DNA from: Haloplanus sp. CK5-1
Lineage (GTDB): Archaea; Halobacteriota; Halobacteria; Halobacteriales; Haloferacaceae
Direction: 5' to 3'
Length of the DNA: 64,000 bases
Assembly (NCBI RefSeq): GCF_037201915.1
Contig: NZ_CP147505.1
Location: 1,674,001 to 1,738,000 of the forward strand
Position 1 is the first letter of the stretch. Every line of letters begins with the position of its first letter. This document shows positions 7,790 through 52,568 of the stretch, piece by piece. Under the pieces are notes generated by a model. It ran no database searches and was not told the DNA's origin. It saw only the letters and a program-made list of their open reading frames with translations. Position numbers and translations under genes: made by a program.

Positions 7790-8637
7790 ACGGCCGACTG
7801 GTCGACGAGAGCGAAGCGACGGTGAGCGTCGAGGACCGCGGCTTCCAGTACGGCGACGCCGCCTTCGAGACGCTCCGGGCCTACGGCGGGACGGTCTTCG
7901 AGTGGGACGCCCACCGCGACCGTCTCGCCGGGACCTGCGAGACACTCGGCATGCCGGATGCGGTCCCCGACGACCTCCACGACCGGATCGTCGCGACCCT
8001 CGAGGCGAACGCCCTCGCCGACGCGTACGTCCGTGCGTCGGTGACTCGCGGCGTCCAAGCCGGCAAACTCACGCCGGCACCCGAGGTGGACCCGACGGTC
8101 GTCGTCGTCGTCAAGCCCCTCCCACGGGGCGGGGTCGAGGGGACGCCGGTGTGGGACCGACCGGCGACGGTGCGGACCGTCGAGACGCGCCGCGTCCCGG
8201 AGGCCGCGATGCCCGCCGACGCCAAGACCCACAACTACCTCGACGGGATCCTCGCACGCCTCGAACTCCGGGGGACCGACGCCGACGAGGCACTCGTGTG
8301 CGACGTCGAGGGACACGTCGCCGAAGGCGCGACGAGCAACGTCTTCCTCGTCGACAGCGGCGTCCTCCGGACGCCCACACTCTCGGGGCCGATCCTGCCG
8401 GGCGTGACGCGGAGGGTCGTCCTCGATATCGCCCGCGAGCTCGATGTTCCGGTCGAGACGGGACGGTACGACGTCGACGACGTGCGGGCGGCCGAGGAGG
8501 CGTTCCTGACGAACACGACCTGGGCGGTCCGACCCGTCGCGTCGGTCGACGGCGTCGACGTCGGCGGCGGGCCGATCACCGATCGCCTCGCGTCGGCGTT
8601 CGACCGACGGGTCGAGGCGTGGTACGACGGCGAATAA
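7774..8637 (+). CDS. pabC: Class IV aminotransferase, probable 4-amino-4-deoxychorismate lyase
   Basis: A 287-residue PLP enzyme of the branched-chain aminotransferase/ADC lyase fold. The PLP lysine lies in DAKTHNYLDG and the cofactor-binding loop in EGATSNVFLV; VEDRGFQYGDAAFETLR is the N-terminal family box. As third gene of an overlapping pabB-pabA operon it most likely removes pyruvate from aminodeoxychorismate to give p-aminobenzoate. D-amino-acid or branched-chain transaminase activity is the alternative on sequence alone. The ATG at 7774 lies within the end of pabA and is favoured over upstream in-frame codons because the family N terminus starts there. Confidence 0.82.
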   Translation: MQYHVNGRLVDESEATVSVEDRGFQYGDAAFETLRAYGGTVFEWDAHRDRLAGTCETLGMPDAVPDDLHDRIVATLEANALADAYVRASVTRGVQAGKLTPAPEVDPTVVVVVKPLPRGGVEGTPVWDRPATVRTVETRRVPEAAMPADAKTHNYLDGILARLELRGTDADEALVCDVEGHVAEGATSNVFLVDSGVLRTPTLSGPILPGVTRRVVLDIARELDVPVETGRYDVDDVRAAEEAFLTNTTWAVRPVASVDGVDVGGGPITDRLASAFDRRVEAWYDGE

Positions 8638-8699
8638 GTGTCGGATAATTTATTATCGTCTGACGATGGTTTATCACCGAGAAGGTCGATACGGCGAGT

Positions 8700-9212
8700 A
8701 TGAAGATCGATCCAGCCAACGGGAGCGACACCGACGCGGAGCGACCGGACGCCGTCGAAGCGGACGGCGGGGCCGAGGCGGAAGCGCGCCTGGCCGACGA
8801 CGGCGACACCGAACCCGAAGCGAGCCTGGTCGACGAGTCGACCGGGGCCGAGACGGACGACGCCGACGAGTCGGCCGTCGTCGACGCCGCCGAACCGCTG
8901 ACGATAACGCTGCCGGACGGGAGCGAGAGCGTCTCGGAGGCGATCCTCTCGAACCGGCGGATGCTCACGAACCCGGACGAGCACGACCTGGTGTCGGCGG
9001 GCGAACTCGAGGAGGTGCGCGACGCGGTCGACACCCTGTCGACGGAGGTGTCGGACGACCTTCGGGACGAAGTGGCGACCCTCGAAACGTCGCTCGAGGA
9101 GGTCGAGAAGCACATCGACCGCCAGGGGCGACAGATCGAGGAGCTTCGCGACACCGTCACGTCGCTCGCGGAGATTCTCGGTGCGTCGGTCGAGTTCCAA
9201 GAGACCGAGTGA
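8700..9212 (+). CDS. Acidic coiled-coil protein, haloarchaeal hypothetical
   Basis: A 170-residue, very acidic cytoplasmic protein with no membrane segment or recognisable catalytic motif. The first 65 residues are low-complexity (Asp/Glu/Ala rich). Residues 70-95 (ITLPDGSESVSEAILSNRRM) look like a short folded module, and residues 100-160 form a heptad-like coiled coil. The AT-rich stretch ATAATTTATTATC about 50 nt upstream supplies a promoter. I do not recognise a function; it resembles a small scaffold or partitioning accessory protein only in shape. Confidence 0.7.
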   Translation: MKIDPANGSDTDAERPDAVEADGGAEAEARLADDGDTEPEASLVDESTGAETDDADESAVVDAAEPLTITLPDGSESVSEAILSNRRMLTNPDEHDLVSAGELEEVRDAVDTLSTEVSDDLRDEVATLETSLEEVEKHIDRQGRQIEELRDTVTSLAEILGASVEFQETE

Positions 9213-9306
9213 GGCCGTCGGTCGGACCGCCCCGTTCGCAGTGACCGATCGAACACTCGCGGGACCGAAAGCCACTTGCGGGACAGTAGGGAACGGGCAC
9301 CGTGGC

Positions 9307-9391
9307 GCGAGGGTGGCCGAGCCAGGCCAAAGGCGGCGGGCTTAAGACCCGCTCTCGAAGGAGTTCGGGGGTTCGAATCCCCTCCCTCGCA
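9307..9391 (+). tRNA. tRNA-Leu (UAA)
   Basis: An 85-nt class II tRNA. The acceptor stem pairs GCGAGGG (9307-9313) with CCCTCGC (9384-9390), with discriminator A at 9391. The anticodon arm GCGGG-CTTAAGA-CCCGC gives anticodon TAA. A long variable arm (CTCGAAGGAG) is as expected for Leu. The T arm has GGGGG-TTCGAAT-CCCCT. No intron and no encoded CCA. Its 3' end is repeated downstream (see 9481-9502). Confidence 0.96.
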
Positions 9392-9771
9392 CTACCGCTC
9401 CGAACGAACGTGAGGAGCGTGTCGTGTGCCGTGGGGATCGAACCAGAGAGTGGAGCGAACGGAGTGAGCGGAACGACCGTGGTTCGAATCCCCTCGCTCG
9501 CATCGAACGAGTACGAACCACGGGGCGTAGCTACGGCTCGTCGGTGTGAACGGAAAAGCGAAAAGCGAGCGTACGGGAAAGAGGGGCCGTACGATCGCTT
9601 GCCGCCCTGATTGGTCCCCGCTGACGCTTCGGCCCTCCAGACGAAGCGTCACGTGGGACAAGTCGGGGAAGAGACTTAAACGTGCCGCCGGCGGCATGAC
9701 CCTCGGGAGTCGAAAGCACCGGTCGGCGGCGACGCGAGGGACTTTTACCCGCCCGCGACCTCCGTCGAACT
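9392..9771. other. Gene-free stretch after tRNA-Leu
   Basis: About 380 nt with no convincing coding frame. It holds a second copy of the tRNA 3' end, a GAGCGAACGGAGTGAGCGG-type inverted repeat near 9453, and an ACTTAAAC promoter-like element near 9674. The element ACTTTTACC about 35 nt before the next ATG is the likely promoter of the following gene. Confidence 0.45.
9481..9502 (+). repeat. Partial tRNA-Leu 3'-end duplicate, candidate att-site remnant
   Basis: These 22 nt match the last 22 nt of the tRNA-Leu gene (9370-9391) at 21 of 22 positions, covering the T loop, T stem 3' strand and acceptor 3' strand. The preceding bases do not form the rest of a tRNA. Archaeal and bacterial elements integrate into tRNA 3' ends and leave such direct repeats, so this is a candidate attachment-site scar. 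Only about 90 nt remain between the copies, so any element has been lost. Confidence 0.6.
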
Positions 9772-48196: not shown

Positions 48197-48240
48197 TCGC
48201 AAGGCTCTTTTTCCGGTCGGTGCGTACCGCCGCGTGGCCG

Positions 48241-48351
48241 ATGACGAGTGCACCACTCCGAGCCGGGGTGGCACCCGGCGACGACGAGCCCTATGAGTGC
48301 CGAGGCCACCGATTTACTGGTACCAGTAGACGAAATTCGGGTGAGCGTTAA
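48241..48351 (+). pseudogene. Truncated zinc-ribbon-like small ORF at the island border
   Basis: A 36-codon ORF with haloarchaeal codon use for its first 22 codons, reading DDEPYECRGHRF. Small haloarchaeal rubrerythrin-like or zinc-ribbon proteins often start with D-P-Y-E-C followed by more CxxC pairs; here only one Cys is present and the frame ends in a basic tail in low-GC sequence. I read it as the 5' stub of such a gene cut by the island. Alternatively it is a chance ORF. Confidence 0.35.
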
Positions 48352-48465
48352 TCACCATCCGTCTTATAGAAACAGACTGCTAGGCTCAAACCAGACGAAT
48401 CTCCGGGTTACCACTCCGCTGTGAACCTACTTCAAGCGCACACTCGTTAGCCAATTTTCGCTGCT

Positions 48466-48490
48466 GAAACTCTGAGGTCAAGATTTTTAT
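48466..48490 (+). promoter_or_regulatory. Duplicated promoter, copy 1
   Basis: A 25-nt block with GAGGTCAAG followed by TTTTTAT, matching copy 2 (49703-49727) at 22 of 25 positions. In both copies the end of TTTTTAT is exactly 36 nt before the ATG. It is probably BRE/TATA plus an upstream regulator site. Confidence 0.6.
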
Positions 48491-48525
48491 TATTATGTTT
48501 GAATGTGACAAGAGACAACGAAACT

Positions 48526-49617
48526 ATGCCGTCCTCTGAGTATCCTGACGCCGTCTTGGAATATGTGGTGGCTCAGGGATGGACAACGAACCTCACTGAG
48601 CTACGAGAAGGGGCGTATATTATTGCTGGAGAGCGAAAGGGAGATTCTGGCTCTGAAAAAATGCTTCTGATGATCGTCTGCGAGCCGGAACAAGAAGTCA
48701 CGTCAGAACACATAGAATATCTGATTAAAGCTGGACGAGAGAAGAACGTCGATTCGGTACTGCTGACATATACTGTCCAGATTACAGAGAACGCCCGAGA
48801 GATGACTAGCGAATACGGGATAGATGAAATCAAGCCGGAGAAAATCCGTTCACATAATGAAACTGGTGAGTTTGCTGTAGGCACTGACGAGATATCGATG
48901 CCTGGCTCCGATTCAGATTCTCGGTCAGATTCGGTCGACGAGACAGCCACGAAAGGAAAAGAGCCAACAGATGAGAGAATACACAGCATCAGAGCGAATT
49001 ACACACAGTCGGAGGGCCGATCTGTAGGTGGCAACCTGATCCTATCGGAGACTTTACTTTTTTTCGAGCCGCATAAAATTGCAGAACTGAGTGGCGAAAA
49101 AGAAATTAAAGTCTCATATGATAATATCAAAGAACTGAACAGAGAAAAGAGGTTCAATCGAGGTATAAAAGATGCGATATTTGGTGGGGGATTAAGAGAT
49201 AGATTGAGAATTAGAACCCATAGTGGTAGAGAACTGCTTTTCGCCGTGTCTAATATCGAAGATGTGATGAATAAAATAAATAGATTGAAACAATCGGAAC
49301 AAGCACAGACTCGATCGCTTGGTGAATACCTTTCAGAGACGGATGAACGATCTGGGGAGCCCACAACGTTAACCCTCGGTCTTACCGCTTCTTGGATTAT
49401 TGGGCTATTTACACTAATTGTTGGTAGTAACTTATTCTGGAATCAAGGTCGTCTGAGTGGCCTCCTGTATATGATTGCGGGTGCAATCGTTGCTCCGTAT
49501 ACACGTAGATACGTAGAATCATTTGTAGGTGTGAAATTTGGTCGTTGGTTCCTTGTTGCCACGTGGATTGTTGTTTGCTTCATAGCGGCTCTTATGTACG
49601 CAGCTACGCCCGTCTAA
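48526..49617 (+). CDS. Island membrane protein A: REase-like N domain, PH/GRAM-like domain, membrane segments
   Basis: A 363-residue protein. Residues 1-110 form an alpha/beta domain resembling the restriction-endonuclease-like fold seen at the N terminus of many haloarchaeal membrane proteins, but the catalytic ExK-type strand reads LMIVCEPE, so nuclease activity is unlikely. A Ser/Asp linker (125-150) leads to a PH/GRAM-like beta domain (about 155-255: GGNLILSETLLFF, EIKVSYDNIKEL). Three membrane helices follow (280-303, 309-325, 340-360). Codon use is AT-rich, unlike the flanks, suggesting transfer. The ATG is chosen because the paralogue starts at the same motif (EYPDAVLEY). Confidence 0.75.
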   Translation: MPSSEYPDAVLEYVVAQGWTTNLTELREGAYIIAGERKGDSGSEKMLLMIVCEPEQEVTSEHIEYLIKAGREKNVDSVLLTYTVQITENAREMTSEYGIDEIKPEKIRSHNETGEFAVGTDEISMPGSDSDSRSDSVDETATKGKEPTDERIHSIRANYTQSEGRSVGGNLILSETLLFFEPHKIAELSGEKEIKVSYDNIKELNREKRFNRGIKDAIFGGGLRDRLRIRTHSGRELLFAVSNIEDVMNKINRLKQSEQAQTRSLGEYLSETDERSGEPTTLTLGLTASWIIGLFTLIVGSNLFWNQGRLSGLLYMIAGAIVAPYTRRYVESFVGVKFGRWFLVATWIVVCFIAALMYAATPV

Positions 49618-49702
49618 TTTAGAGTGATTGTGAATTATATTCAGTTTATGATATGTCGTGTGATATACGAAAGGATAAGCAACGAGTGAAAATTCTACGA
49701 TT

Positions 49703-49727
49703 GAAATTTTGAGGTCAAGCTTTTTAT
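49703..49727 (+). promoter_or_regulatory. Duplicated promoter, copy 2
   Basis: Matches copy 1 at 22 of 25 positions, again with GAGGTCAAG plus TTTTTAT and 36 nt from the end of TTTTTAT to the ATG. Each paralogue therefore has its own near-identical promoter. Confidence 0.6.
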
Positions 49728-49762
49728 CGTGGTAATGAAACGAACCAATAGATAACAGCAGT

Positions 49763-50821
49763 ATGTCGTCTCTTGAGTATCCTGATGCTGTCTTAGAGTA
49801 TGAACAGGCACGGGGATGGACTACAGATCTCACGGAGTTACGAGAAGGAGTGTATATTGTTTCCGGAGAGCGCAAGAGAGATGCTAGCTCCGAAAAGATG
49901 CTTCTGATGATCGTCTGCAAACCTGAAAACGAGATCACGTCAAATCATATAGAATTTCTGATTAAAGCTGGGCGAGAGAAGGATATTAATTCAGTGATGC
50001 TAACGTATACTGTCCAACTTACAGAGAACGCCCAAGAGCAGTGCGAAAAATACGGAGTAGATATAATCGATTCAGAAAAAGTACGATCCTACACCGAATC
50101 GGGCGGCTTCGATGTTGATATTACTGATATCCAGATGCCCGGATCTGGATCAGAGAGCCAGACCGATATATCATCTAATTCTAAGCTTCTCACACGGCGT
50201 AATGCGGTTCTTCTGTTGGGAGGAATAGGGACAGTAGCCTTGTTAGGCAATGGTGGAAATAATGGGTTAGAACTCATAGATGCAGTTCCCCGGAGAGAGC
50301 CGAGTGGATGGGCTATTTGGCATTTTAATGTGAAAAATACAGGTGAAACTCAGAACGCTCGCGCTTACGTGGACATAAGAATCACCACAGGTGAGAACGC
50401 AGGAGAGGTGACTGAATCGTATGACAGCACAAAGGTGATCGAGAGCGGCGAGACAGCAGACATCAGGGTCGACAGTACGTACTACACAAACACAGAGGAT
50501 TACGAGTTCGATTACGGTATTGAACCAACGGACCGTCCACACGCAACGTTCGAAGTGGCCTCTGAGGATTCGAAATTTCGTTTAGACGCGTCGGAATCAA
50601 CCTCCGTGACGAGTTCTATCACGTCTTACGAGTGGTCGGCACACGAATTTACTATACCAGAGTACGGCGAACCTCTGAATTGGAACATACCCGACGGAGA
50701 AATAATCGATTTCGAGGTGCCGTCCAAGCGGACTCTTGACCTCGTACTGAAAGTCACAGACGAAGAGGGACGGACTGATGAGAAAGATAAACGCCTATCG
50801 CGTTCTGAATATTGGGCGTAG
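49763..50821 (+). CDS. Island membrane protein B: REase-like N domain, one membrane helix, Ig/PKD-like extracellular part
   Basis: A 352-residue paralogue of protein A. Residues 1-110 are about 70% identical to A (77 of 110 by my count), while everything after about 125 is unrelated. A single membrane segment (147-164) preceded by LTRRN leads to an extracellular-type part: a CARDB-like strand region (183-240, WHFNVKNTGETQNARAYVDIR) and a PKD-like domain (260-345, RLDASES, SYEWSA, LDLVLKVTDEEG). The N-terminal domain should be cytoplasmic. AT-rich codon use matches A. Function unknown; nuclease activity is doubtful because the key strand is VCKPE. Confidence 0.75.
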   Translation: MSSLEYPDAVLEYEQARGWTTDLTELREGVYIVSGERKRDASSEKMLLMIVCKPENEITSNHIEFLIKAGREKDINSVMLTYTVQLTENAQEQCEKYGVDIIDSEKVRSYTESGGFDVDITDIQMPGSGSESQTDISSNSKLLTRRNAVLLLGGIGTVALLGNGGNNGLELIDAVPRREPSGWAIWHFNVKNTGETQNARAYVDIRITTGENAGEVTESYDSTKVIESGETADIRVDSTYYTNTEDYEFDYGIEPTDRPHATFEVASEDSKFRLDASESTSVTSSITSYEWSAHEFTIPEYGEPLNWNIPDGEIIDFEVPSKRTLDLVLKVTDEEGRTDEKDKRLSRSEYWA

Positions 50822-51357
50822 TGTCCAGATACGGATGTAACGACGTTGCCGAGCGATCGCACGGTGTGGCCGCCGAAATCTCCGACCGGGTTCGAGAAAT
50901 CGCCGAAGCTCGCGGCCTTCGGGAGTCCGAAGCGTTCGAGCGGGGACTCGAACTGCTGTCAGCGTTCGATACGCTCCTGATTCCGGAGACAGTCTACGAG
51001 GAAGTTGAGGCCGGTGGCGTCCCCGACGGGTTATCCGCCCTCCCGTACGAACTCGTCGAAGCCGACGAAAGACGAGTCGGAACTGAAAAACTGGATGGCG
51101 GAGAACGCGCCGCGATTGCGGTAGCTGAAGAGCGGGGAGTCGTTCTCCTAACCGACGGCCTCGCCGCCCGAGCGGCAGTATCCGACGCTGACGTCGAAGT
51201 GCACGGCTCTATCGGCGTAATTGCGCTTGGTCCCGCTCGGAGAGTACTCGACAAGGACGAGGCGACATCACTCGTGCGTACACTCCAACATGAGACGAGC
51301 CTCTTCGTGACGGAGACAGTCGTGGAGCATAGCATCCAGATGCTGGACGGACAGTGA
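50821..51357 (+). pseudogene. Antitoxin-PIN toxin fusion relic (DUF3368-like)
   Basis: A 178-codon frame. Its start (VAAEISDRVREIAEARGLRESEAFERGLELL) looks like a small VapB-type antitoxin; then it passes directly into the middle of a PIN toxin (LSAFDTLLIPETVYEEV, GGERAAIAVAEERGVVLLTDG, GSIGVIALGPARRVL). The PIN N terminus with the first catalytic Asp (VxDTSxLI) is missing, so the toxin part should be inactive. An in-frame deletion that joined the two genes of a toxin-antitoxin pair explains it. The GTG used overlaps the previous stop. GC-rich codons set it apart from the island genes upstream. Confidence 0.6.
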
Positions 51358-51875: not shown

Positions 51876-52568
51876 ATGACCGACGTAGAACAGGAGGACG
51901 CGGCGGCCGCATTTCGGGAGATCCTGGAGACGGTCGACGACGAGATCGAGGATTTGGCGACGTCAGGGGGGATCACGGCGGACACGCGAGGCGACTTGTC
52001 GGTCGATACGCTGTTACGCATCGCGCGGTGGCGATCCGTCCAGAGCGCCGTCCTCTACGGTGACTGGGCCGACCGGCAGCGCGTCACGGGGATGGACGCG
52101 GAGGTCGCACTCGCTGCGGCGTGGAAGGCTGGCCGATCCGTCGAGCAGTACGAGGCCGTGACCGACCACCTCAGCAGCCGCGGTGTCGATCCCGAGCCGG
52201 TCGAGTACGCACTTCACGGGGAAACGCTACAGTTCATGGCCGACCTGACCGACCCGGTCGCCCGAGTCACCGCGGGGTTCGTCGTCGCTCCCAAACTTCG
52301 CGCCGTCAAGGACAAACAGGCGACACTCGTCGCGACCGGCAACGCCGACCCGCAAACGGCCAGCCTCTATCGGGATACCATCGTCCCACCCGAAGAGGAG
52401 GCCATCGAACGCGGCAAACGACTGCTTTCACGCTATCTCGACGACGACGATACATCCGCCGTGAAGACCGTCGAGGAGACCGCCGACGCCTTCCTCGAGG
52501 TCACGTGGAAGTCCCAAGAACGGGCGATGGACGAGACGGGCGATATCGACCCGAAGACGATCTGTTAG
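51876..52568 (+). CDS. All-helical haloarchaeal protein of unknown function
   Basis: A 230-residue protein predicted to be almost all helix, without membrane segments. It carries conserved-looking acidic/aromatic helices (MDAEVALAAAWKAGRSVEQYEAV, PPEEEAIERGKRLL, ETADAFLEVTWKSQERAM). Several Glu and His on helices make a ferritin-like or other metal-binding bundle possible, but I cannot identify ligands with confidence. It follows the glutaredoxin-like gene by 32 nt and is likely in its transcript. It converges with arsR; stops share TTAG at 52565-52568. Confidence 0.65.
   Translation: MTDVEQEDAAAAFREILETVDDEIEDLATSGGITADTRGDLSVDTLLRIARWRSVQSAVLYGDWADRQRVTGMDAEVALAAAWKAGRSVEQYEAVTDHLSSRGVDPEPVEYALHGETLQFMADLTDPVARVTAGFVVAPKLRAVKDKQATLVATGNADPQTASLYRDTIVPPEEEAIERGKRLLSRYLDDDDTSAVKTVEETADAFLEVTWKSQERAMDETGDIDPKTIC

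Follow-up and report, generated by a model that had tools for sequence, protein, structure and literature searches.

The window (the 64,000 nucleotides of Haloplanus sp. CK5-1 DNA that were analysed) contains two genes, A and B, that lie head to tail and 145 bp apart, immediately to the right of a conserved C/D-box guide RNA gene, sR-tMet (Table 1). They are the sole occupants of an inserted segment of ~2.5 kb, the edges of which are accurate to about +/-15 bp and the right edge of which is the stop codon of B. As the earlier note had it, this is AT-rich DNA within a GC-rich chromosome: the G+C content is 45% for A and 47% for B, against ~68% in the surroundings. Local variation in composition is ruled out as an explanation by the congener sites that do not carry the segment: in three congeners (L119, L121 and L125), the same place is occupied by deoxyhypusine synthase, sR-tMet and an intact vapBC-like pair. 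Moreover, the deoxyhypusine synthase/sR-tMet region lacks A and B in all 10 of the congeners where it could be located, and the N-terminal domain common to A and B was not found genome-wide in any of the seven congeners searched, whereas sR-tMet itself is conserved in ten.

Table 1. Features of the A/B locus in the window, with one comparison locus (last line)
Feature	Position	Strand	Basis or remark
sR-tMet (C/D-box guide RNA gene) at the left island edge	48236-48307	+	Rfam RF02163, 75.8 bits, E 2.5e-14
Inserted AT-rich segment, only A and B inside	~48316-50825	.	Alignment to A/B-free sites of L119, L121, L125
Promoter block of A	48466-48490	+	TATA-like TTTTTAT; 22/25 match to B copy
Gene A	48526-49617	+	363 aa
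A residues 1-112, predicted catalytically dead Mrr-type PD-(D/E)XK domain	48526-48861	+	Model, Foldseek, hhalign
A residues 148-254, tentative PH/GRAM-like cytoplasmic domain	48967-49287	+	Free-standing homologues; weak profiles
A residues 280-360, three membrane helices	49363-49605	+	Hydropathy; helices in model
Promoter block of B	49703-49727	+	22/25 match to A copy
Gene B	49763-50821	+	352 aa
B residues 1-112, second copy of the predicted dead Mrr-type domain	49763-50098	+	BLASTP to A; Mrr_cat 21.9 bits
B residues 145-163, former Tat lipoprotein signal, now internal signal anchor	50195-50251	+	Alignment A4 with L054, L055, L056
B residues 168-341, ectodomain, CARDB-like then PKD-like	50264-50785	+	Free-standing lipoprotein homologue; weak PKD profiles
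Broken vapBC-like toxin-antitoxin remnant	50826-51357	+	Two-piece match to intact pairs in L119, L121, L125
G203 A-type PH/three-helix gene and AspBHI-type enzyme	L107:7573-8199 and 8487-9638	-	Neighbourhood reading

The landing site was compared with L120/L153-L155 (G173), L121 (G281), L126 (G334), L118 (G439) and L124 (G240), and these sequences suggest that sR-tMet serves as an attachment site. An element of 41.7 kb in G173, which encodes a tyrosine integrase, lies between exact 13-bp direct repeats of the sR-tMet 3' end (GAGTGCCGAGGCC), and beyond the right-hand copy come the native flank and vapB; in G334, the ends of a 3.6 kb segment are formed by a near-identical repeat of the same 3' end. 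AT-rich elements unlike the A/B insert sit at sR-tMet in congeners, two of them with tyrosine integrases and one, in G240, which resembles a provirus and has a putative integrase. In G281, the sR-tMet 3' end recurs after the intact vapBC unit, which thus looks like a small integrated cassette in its own right. At the window locus, no integrase is left and a search for a right-hand att repeat found none; a transposon is ruled out by the lack of inverted repeats or a transposase at the edges. The pair came as an ~2.5 kb insert at a mobile-element hot spot, and the proposal of horizontal acquisition in a variable island is borne out by the congeners that lack the segment and by the reuse of the site by other elements. 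Neither 'snoRNA' nor 'small RNA' occurs in a review of archaeal tyrosine recombinases (PMC8371274). To the right of B, the start of vapB is joined in frame to the end of a PIN-type vapC, ~220 bp having been deleted relative to the three congeners. Further along, at 51876-52568, a 230-aa protein of unknown family adjoins a glutaredoxin/GST-like gene; it is present in one of 11 congeners (82%), at a different place.

The two proteins begin alike and end differently. A recount returned the previously given figure of 77 identities in the first 110 residues; by BLASTP, the identity is 66% over 135 residues, and the total divergence noted earlier does indeed hold beyond residue ~135, where there is no meaningful match. 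The likeness extends upstream: when the sequences are aligned without gaps from the start codons, the closest-matching 25-mer has 22 of 25 bases alike, as had been claimed, and its spacing to the ATG is equal in the two genes, although the gap measures 35 nt and not the 36 nt originally stated. With three mismatches allowed, the motif TGAGGTCAAGNTTTTTAT occurs at two sites in the 3.24 Mb genome, namely, the promoter blocks of A and B, and the reversed-motif control gave no matches in the same genome; the promoter was therefore copied along with the gene. The presence of just two genome copies also rules out the common promoter as a regulon signal. At the DNA level, a 300-nt repeat (D1) starts at 48465 and again at 49702, with 76% identity, such that promoter, domain and acidic linker were duplicated as a single unit of ~465 bp, of which these 300 nt align. 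Between the two copies of the N domain, dS is ~0.91 and dN ~0.20, giving a dN/dS of ~0.22; together, these values indicate an old duplication and purifying selection on the N domain.

A structural model of the N domain, built from two sequences (A with B), has a pLDDT of 79.5 and the element order H-E-E-E-H-E-H-H (H3-16, E20-27, E30-38, E43-51, H60-72, E77-82 for the first six), within which the alpha-beta-beta-beta-alpha-beta core of the PD-(D/E)XK superfamily is present. A Foldseek search of the PDB with this model placed MspJI at the top (3.8e-5), followed by the jaw domain of RPB5 (1dzf, 9.4e-5), AF1548 and AspBHI; a sequence search of the PDB with the N domain found no match. By hhalign, the domain matches three intact Mrr domains encoded in the same genome (L131-L133) with 95.9% and E 6e-9, and its scores against Mrr_cat (PF04471; curated cut-off 21 bits) are, depending on the search, 18.2 or 21.9 bits for B and 14.7 or 18.7 bits for A. 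The intact domains carry the motif D...QAK, ECK or QAK, whereas in the alignment both the catalytic Asp and the Gln/Glu-x-Lys are replaced in A, B and ~40 distinct relatives. Given a nuclease fold in which both catalytic positions are replaced, the N domain is, on the model and the profiles, a pseudonuclease, and we infer from the substitutions that nuclease activity has been lost. The restriction-endonuclease-like domain with a degenerate catalytic strand that the earlier note had recognized is therefore upheld on both counts, and structure prediction, named beforehand as the check that could refute it, returned a nuclease-like fold and not an unrelated one. A and B thus have in common with the Mrr-type nucleases, including AspBHI and MspJI, the fold, the order of elements and the profile similarity; unlike them, they have no target-recognition domain, the catalytic residues are gone and membrane modules are attached. 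The RPB5 jaw of RNA polymerase II, which ranks second, is an instance of a nuclease-like fold serving as a structural domain, although no sequence relation to the N domain is shown and its context is unrelated.

Beyond residue 147, A has free-standing homologues in G091 and G203 (31-32% identity). The first part of this module is also found alone, without the three-helix part, and the latter follows zinc ribbons in many proteins as well as other domains. The first part is probably PH/GRAM-like, judging from its sequence: the GRAM profile matches its homologues weakly (0.023-0.04) and hhalign against bPH_3 members gives 52.8% with E 1.4e-4. The PH/GRAM assignment made earlier is therefore tentative, with weak profile scores and no PH fold confirmed by the single-sequence model of this half of A, which is poor (pLDDT about 35 at residues 148-254); the three membrane helices assigned at the same time are supported both by hydropathy and by helices in this low-confidence model. 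A sequence search of the PDB with the A module gave a single match, by chance. An independent protein consisting of Mrr-like, bPH_3 and three-helix parts is L039 (G145), the gene for which adjoins an integrase.

The C-terminal half of B has a different origin. Beyond residue 140, it shares 57% identity with a 220-aa protein that is free-standing in Halobellus clavatus (G276; NZ_FNPB01000005.1). Like the more distant L055 and L056, this protein opens with a twin-arginine signal followed by a lipobox Cys. The Halobellus protein differs from B in having kept this Cys and in having no nuclease-like domain; in B, Arg145-Arg146 are kept, the lipobox Cys is replaced by Asn163 and the signal is internal, so that B does not classify as a Tat lipoprotein. 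With the loss of the lipid-anchor Cys, a Tat lipoprotein was turned into a single-pass protein; read in this way, the alignment identifies B as a former secreted lipoprotein with an internal signal anchor and a cytoplasmic nuclease-like domain in front. The PKD-like domain already proposed for its exterior does attract profile matches (K319L-like_PKD, 9e-4, in B; PKD_4, 5e-5, in the homologue), but both are weak and below cut-off. As the homologues of both C-terminal modules occur free-standing, the idea of a duplicated cytoplasmic domain set on differing membrane modules stands, and we conclude that the cassette was duplicated and fused to genes that already existed, of one kind in A and of another in B.

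A single-sequence search found matches to the N domain in 47 of 391 Halobacteria genomes, and a ten-row profile in 79 of 392 genomes of the order; gene calls in the relatives were made with a simple composition-based script. In nearly all aligned relatives, the domain is followed by membrane helices, with diverse C-terminal modules, and a few consist of the bare domain. These relatives lie mostly among ordinary chromosomal or housekeeping genes. The earlier note had expected homologues to adjoin one another or to lie in variable islands: no second copy of the N domain lies beside the first in any of 17 relative neighbourhoods, such that A and B are the one tandem pair, whereas the window locus does lie in a variable island, and free-standing relatives of the C-terminal modules are in integrase-bearing or variable regions. 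The viral collection contained neither the N domain nor either C-terminal module, and a genome-contig collection scanned with the N domain of A alone contained no relative. There was no match in PHROGs, and tblastn against plasmids and phages gave a distant Halobaculum 'restriction endonuclease' (E 0.2) and one chance phage match.

The commonest layout among the relatives is a dead Mrr domain, one helix and a beta-rich outside domain. In four neighbourhoods (L163, L165, L166 and L167), the gene for the dead-Mrr protein has pyruvate kinase and a DUF7282/DUF7827 surface protein on one side and, on the other, a small membrane protein that looks NfeD-like but matches no Pfam family; three of these four continue with a Band_7/SPFH protein within the stretch read. 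This cluster is conserved across several genera; in a fifth neighbourhood, from G035, the surface protein is present and the rest is different. Its dead-Mrr protein shares the layout of B, with the dead Mrr inside, one helix and a beta-rich exterior; unlike B, it is encoded by a single-copy gene in a conserved chromosomal cluster, has 20-25% identity and bears an ectodomain unrelated in sequence. There is no such relative in the Haloplanus genome itself at E<=1, where A and B are the sole matches and sit between sR-tMet and the vapBC remnant, not between DUF7282 and SPFH genes.

The explanation that we tentatively prefer, at somewhat less than an even chance, takes A and B to be pseudonucleases tethered to the membrane, produced by domain capture and acting as adaptors at the envelope. 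The sequences show that a cassette of promoter, Mrr-type domain and acidic linker was duplicated; one copy was joined to a PH-like plus three-helix gene to give A, and the other to a Tat lipoprotein gene to give B, with loss of the lipid-anchor Cys. The dead nuclease domains would be held in the cytoplasm, a placement that follows from the positive-inside rule (TRR before the B helix, and TRR/GR in a loop of A), and would serve for binding or oligomerization, not as nucleases. The common domain and promoter suggest that A and B could meet and associate at the membrane: B would supply an Ig-like domain on the outside, and A, besides its helical bundle, a PH-like domain in the cytoplasm. Their job would be the organization or monitoring of the cell envelope, not DNA cutting, a role that is likely by analogy with the relatives in SPFH/stomatin clusters and through which the envelope function suggested earlier gains indirect backing. 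However, the SPFH link comes from distant relatives and may not be transferable to A and B, and as the pair was observed once, their co-operation could be accidental. A more specific proposal, that A and B form an inside-outside signalling pair, in which the dead nuclease domains are matching cytoplasmic coupling surfaces for swappable membrane read-outs on a mobile cassette, strikes us as rather unlikely.

Of the other explanations, the one raised at the outset was that of a defence pair, perhaps acting by abortive infection, in which the membrane modules would be the effectors and the dead Mrr would act as a decoy or as a sensor for invading DNA or for inhibitors of nucleases. The island location, the top structural match to MspJI/AspBHI and the precedent of inactive REases in conflict systems (PMC10853773) are all compatible with this, as is the G203 locus, where a modification-dependent restriction enzyme of the AspBHI type (RE_AspBHI_N, 3e-44; Mrr_cat, 2e-10) is followed on the same strand, after ~290 bp, by the free-standing A module, and genes for an integrase and an HSP90-like ATPase are close by. 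However, this neighbourhood is a single instance: L106, the other homologue of the A module, lacks a comparable neighbour, a wider search gave no new full-length homologues, and a recurrent link was dropped. As no PADLOC family matches A or B and the N-domain relatives keep company mainly with housekeeping genes, the defence proposal is not supported and we regard it as improbable. Similarly doubtful is that A and B are element remnants that alter the host surface, for example, in superinfection or surface exclusion. Repeated use of the sR-tMet-adjacent site by integrative elements argues for such cargo, and both the Halobellus homologue of the B module, directly beside a tyrosine integrase, and L039 would agree with it; the window locus, however, has neither integrase nor right-hand repeat, and the viral collection none of the modules.

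It is also conceivable, albeit unlikely, that chance duplication and fusion left two unpaired paralogues that act separately or are decaying, like the adjoining toxin-antitoxin genes. That one tandem pair was found is consistent with this, whereas both reading frames are intact, both promoters are retained and the dN/dS over the common domain speaks of constraint. Least persuasive, and very unlikely in our estimation, is a membrane tether for DNA, in which cleavage has been lost and putative DNA binding kept, anchoring the chromosome or a plasmid; the nuclease fold and the membrane linkage of nearly all aligned relatives would accord with this, but no conserved basic patch is established.

The reuse of inactive enzyme domains is documented (PMC7159879), and A and B offer a clear, datable example of domain shuffling that builds new archaeal membrane proteins: promoter and dead nuclease domain move as one cassette, and the fusion partners are still free-standing in relatives. 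They also point to a large, little-studied family of membrane-associated inactive nuclease domains in haloarchaea, commonest in the SPFH/stomatin-like cluster; if the domain is an adaptor, as in the explanation that we prefer, a protein class routinely labelled 'restriction endonuclease' is misannotated. The same concept, an inactive REase domain as adaptor, applies to the NACHT-associated inactive REases (PF22722) and those described in conflict systems; unlike these, A and B have no NACHT, Orc/CDC6 or HerA partner, no NACHT gene was found in the island and neither protein matches PF22722 at E<=1. In the Haloplanus genome, the only match to PF22722 (27.3 bits) is an intact Mrr domain (D...QAK; L003/L131, G000:C1:2678341-2678688) that is fused to an HtpX-like M48 peptidase.
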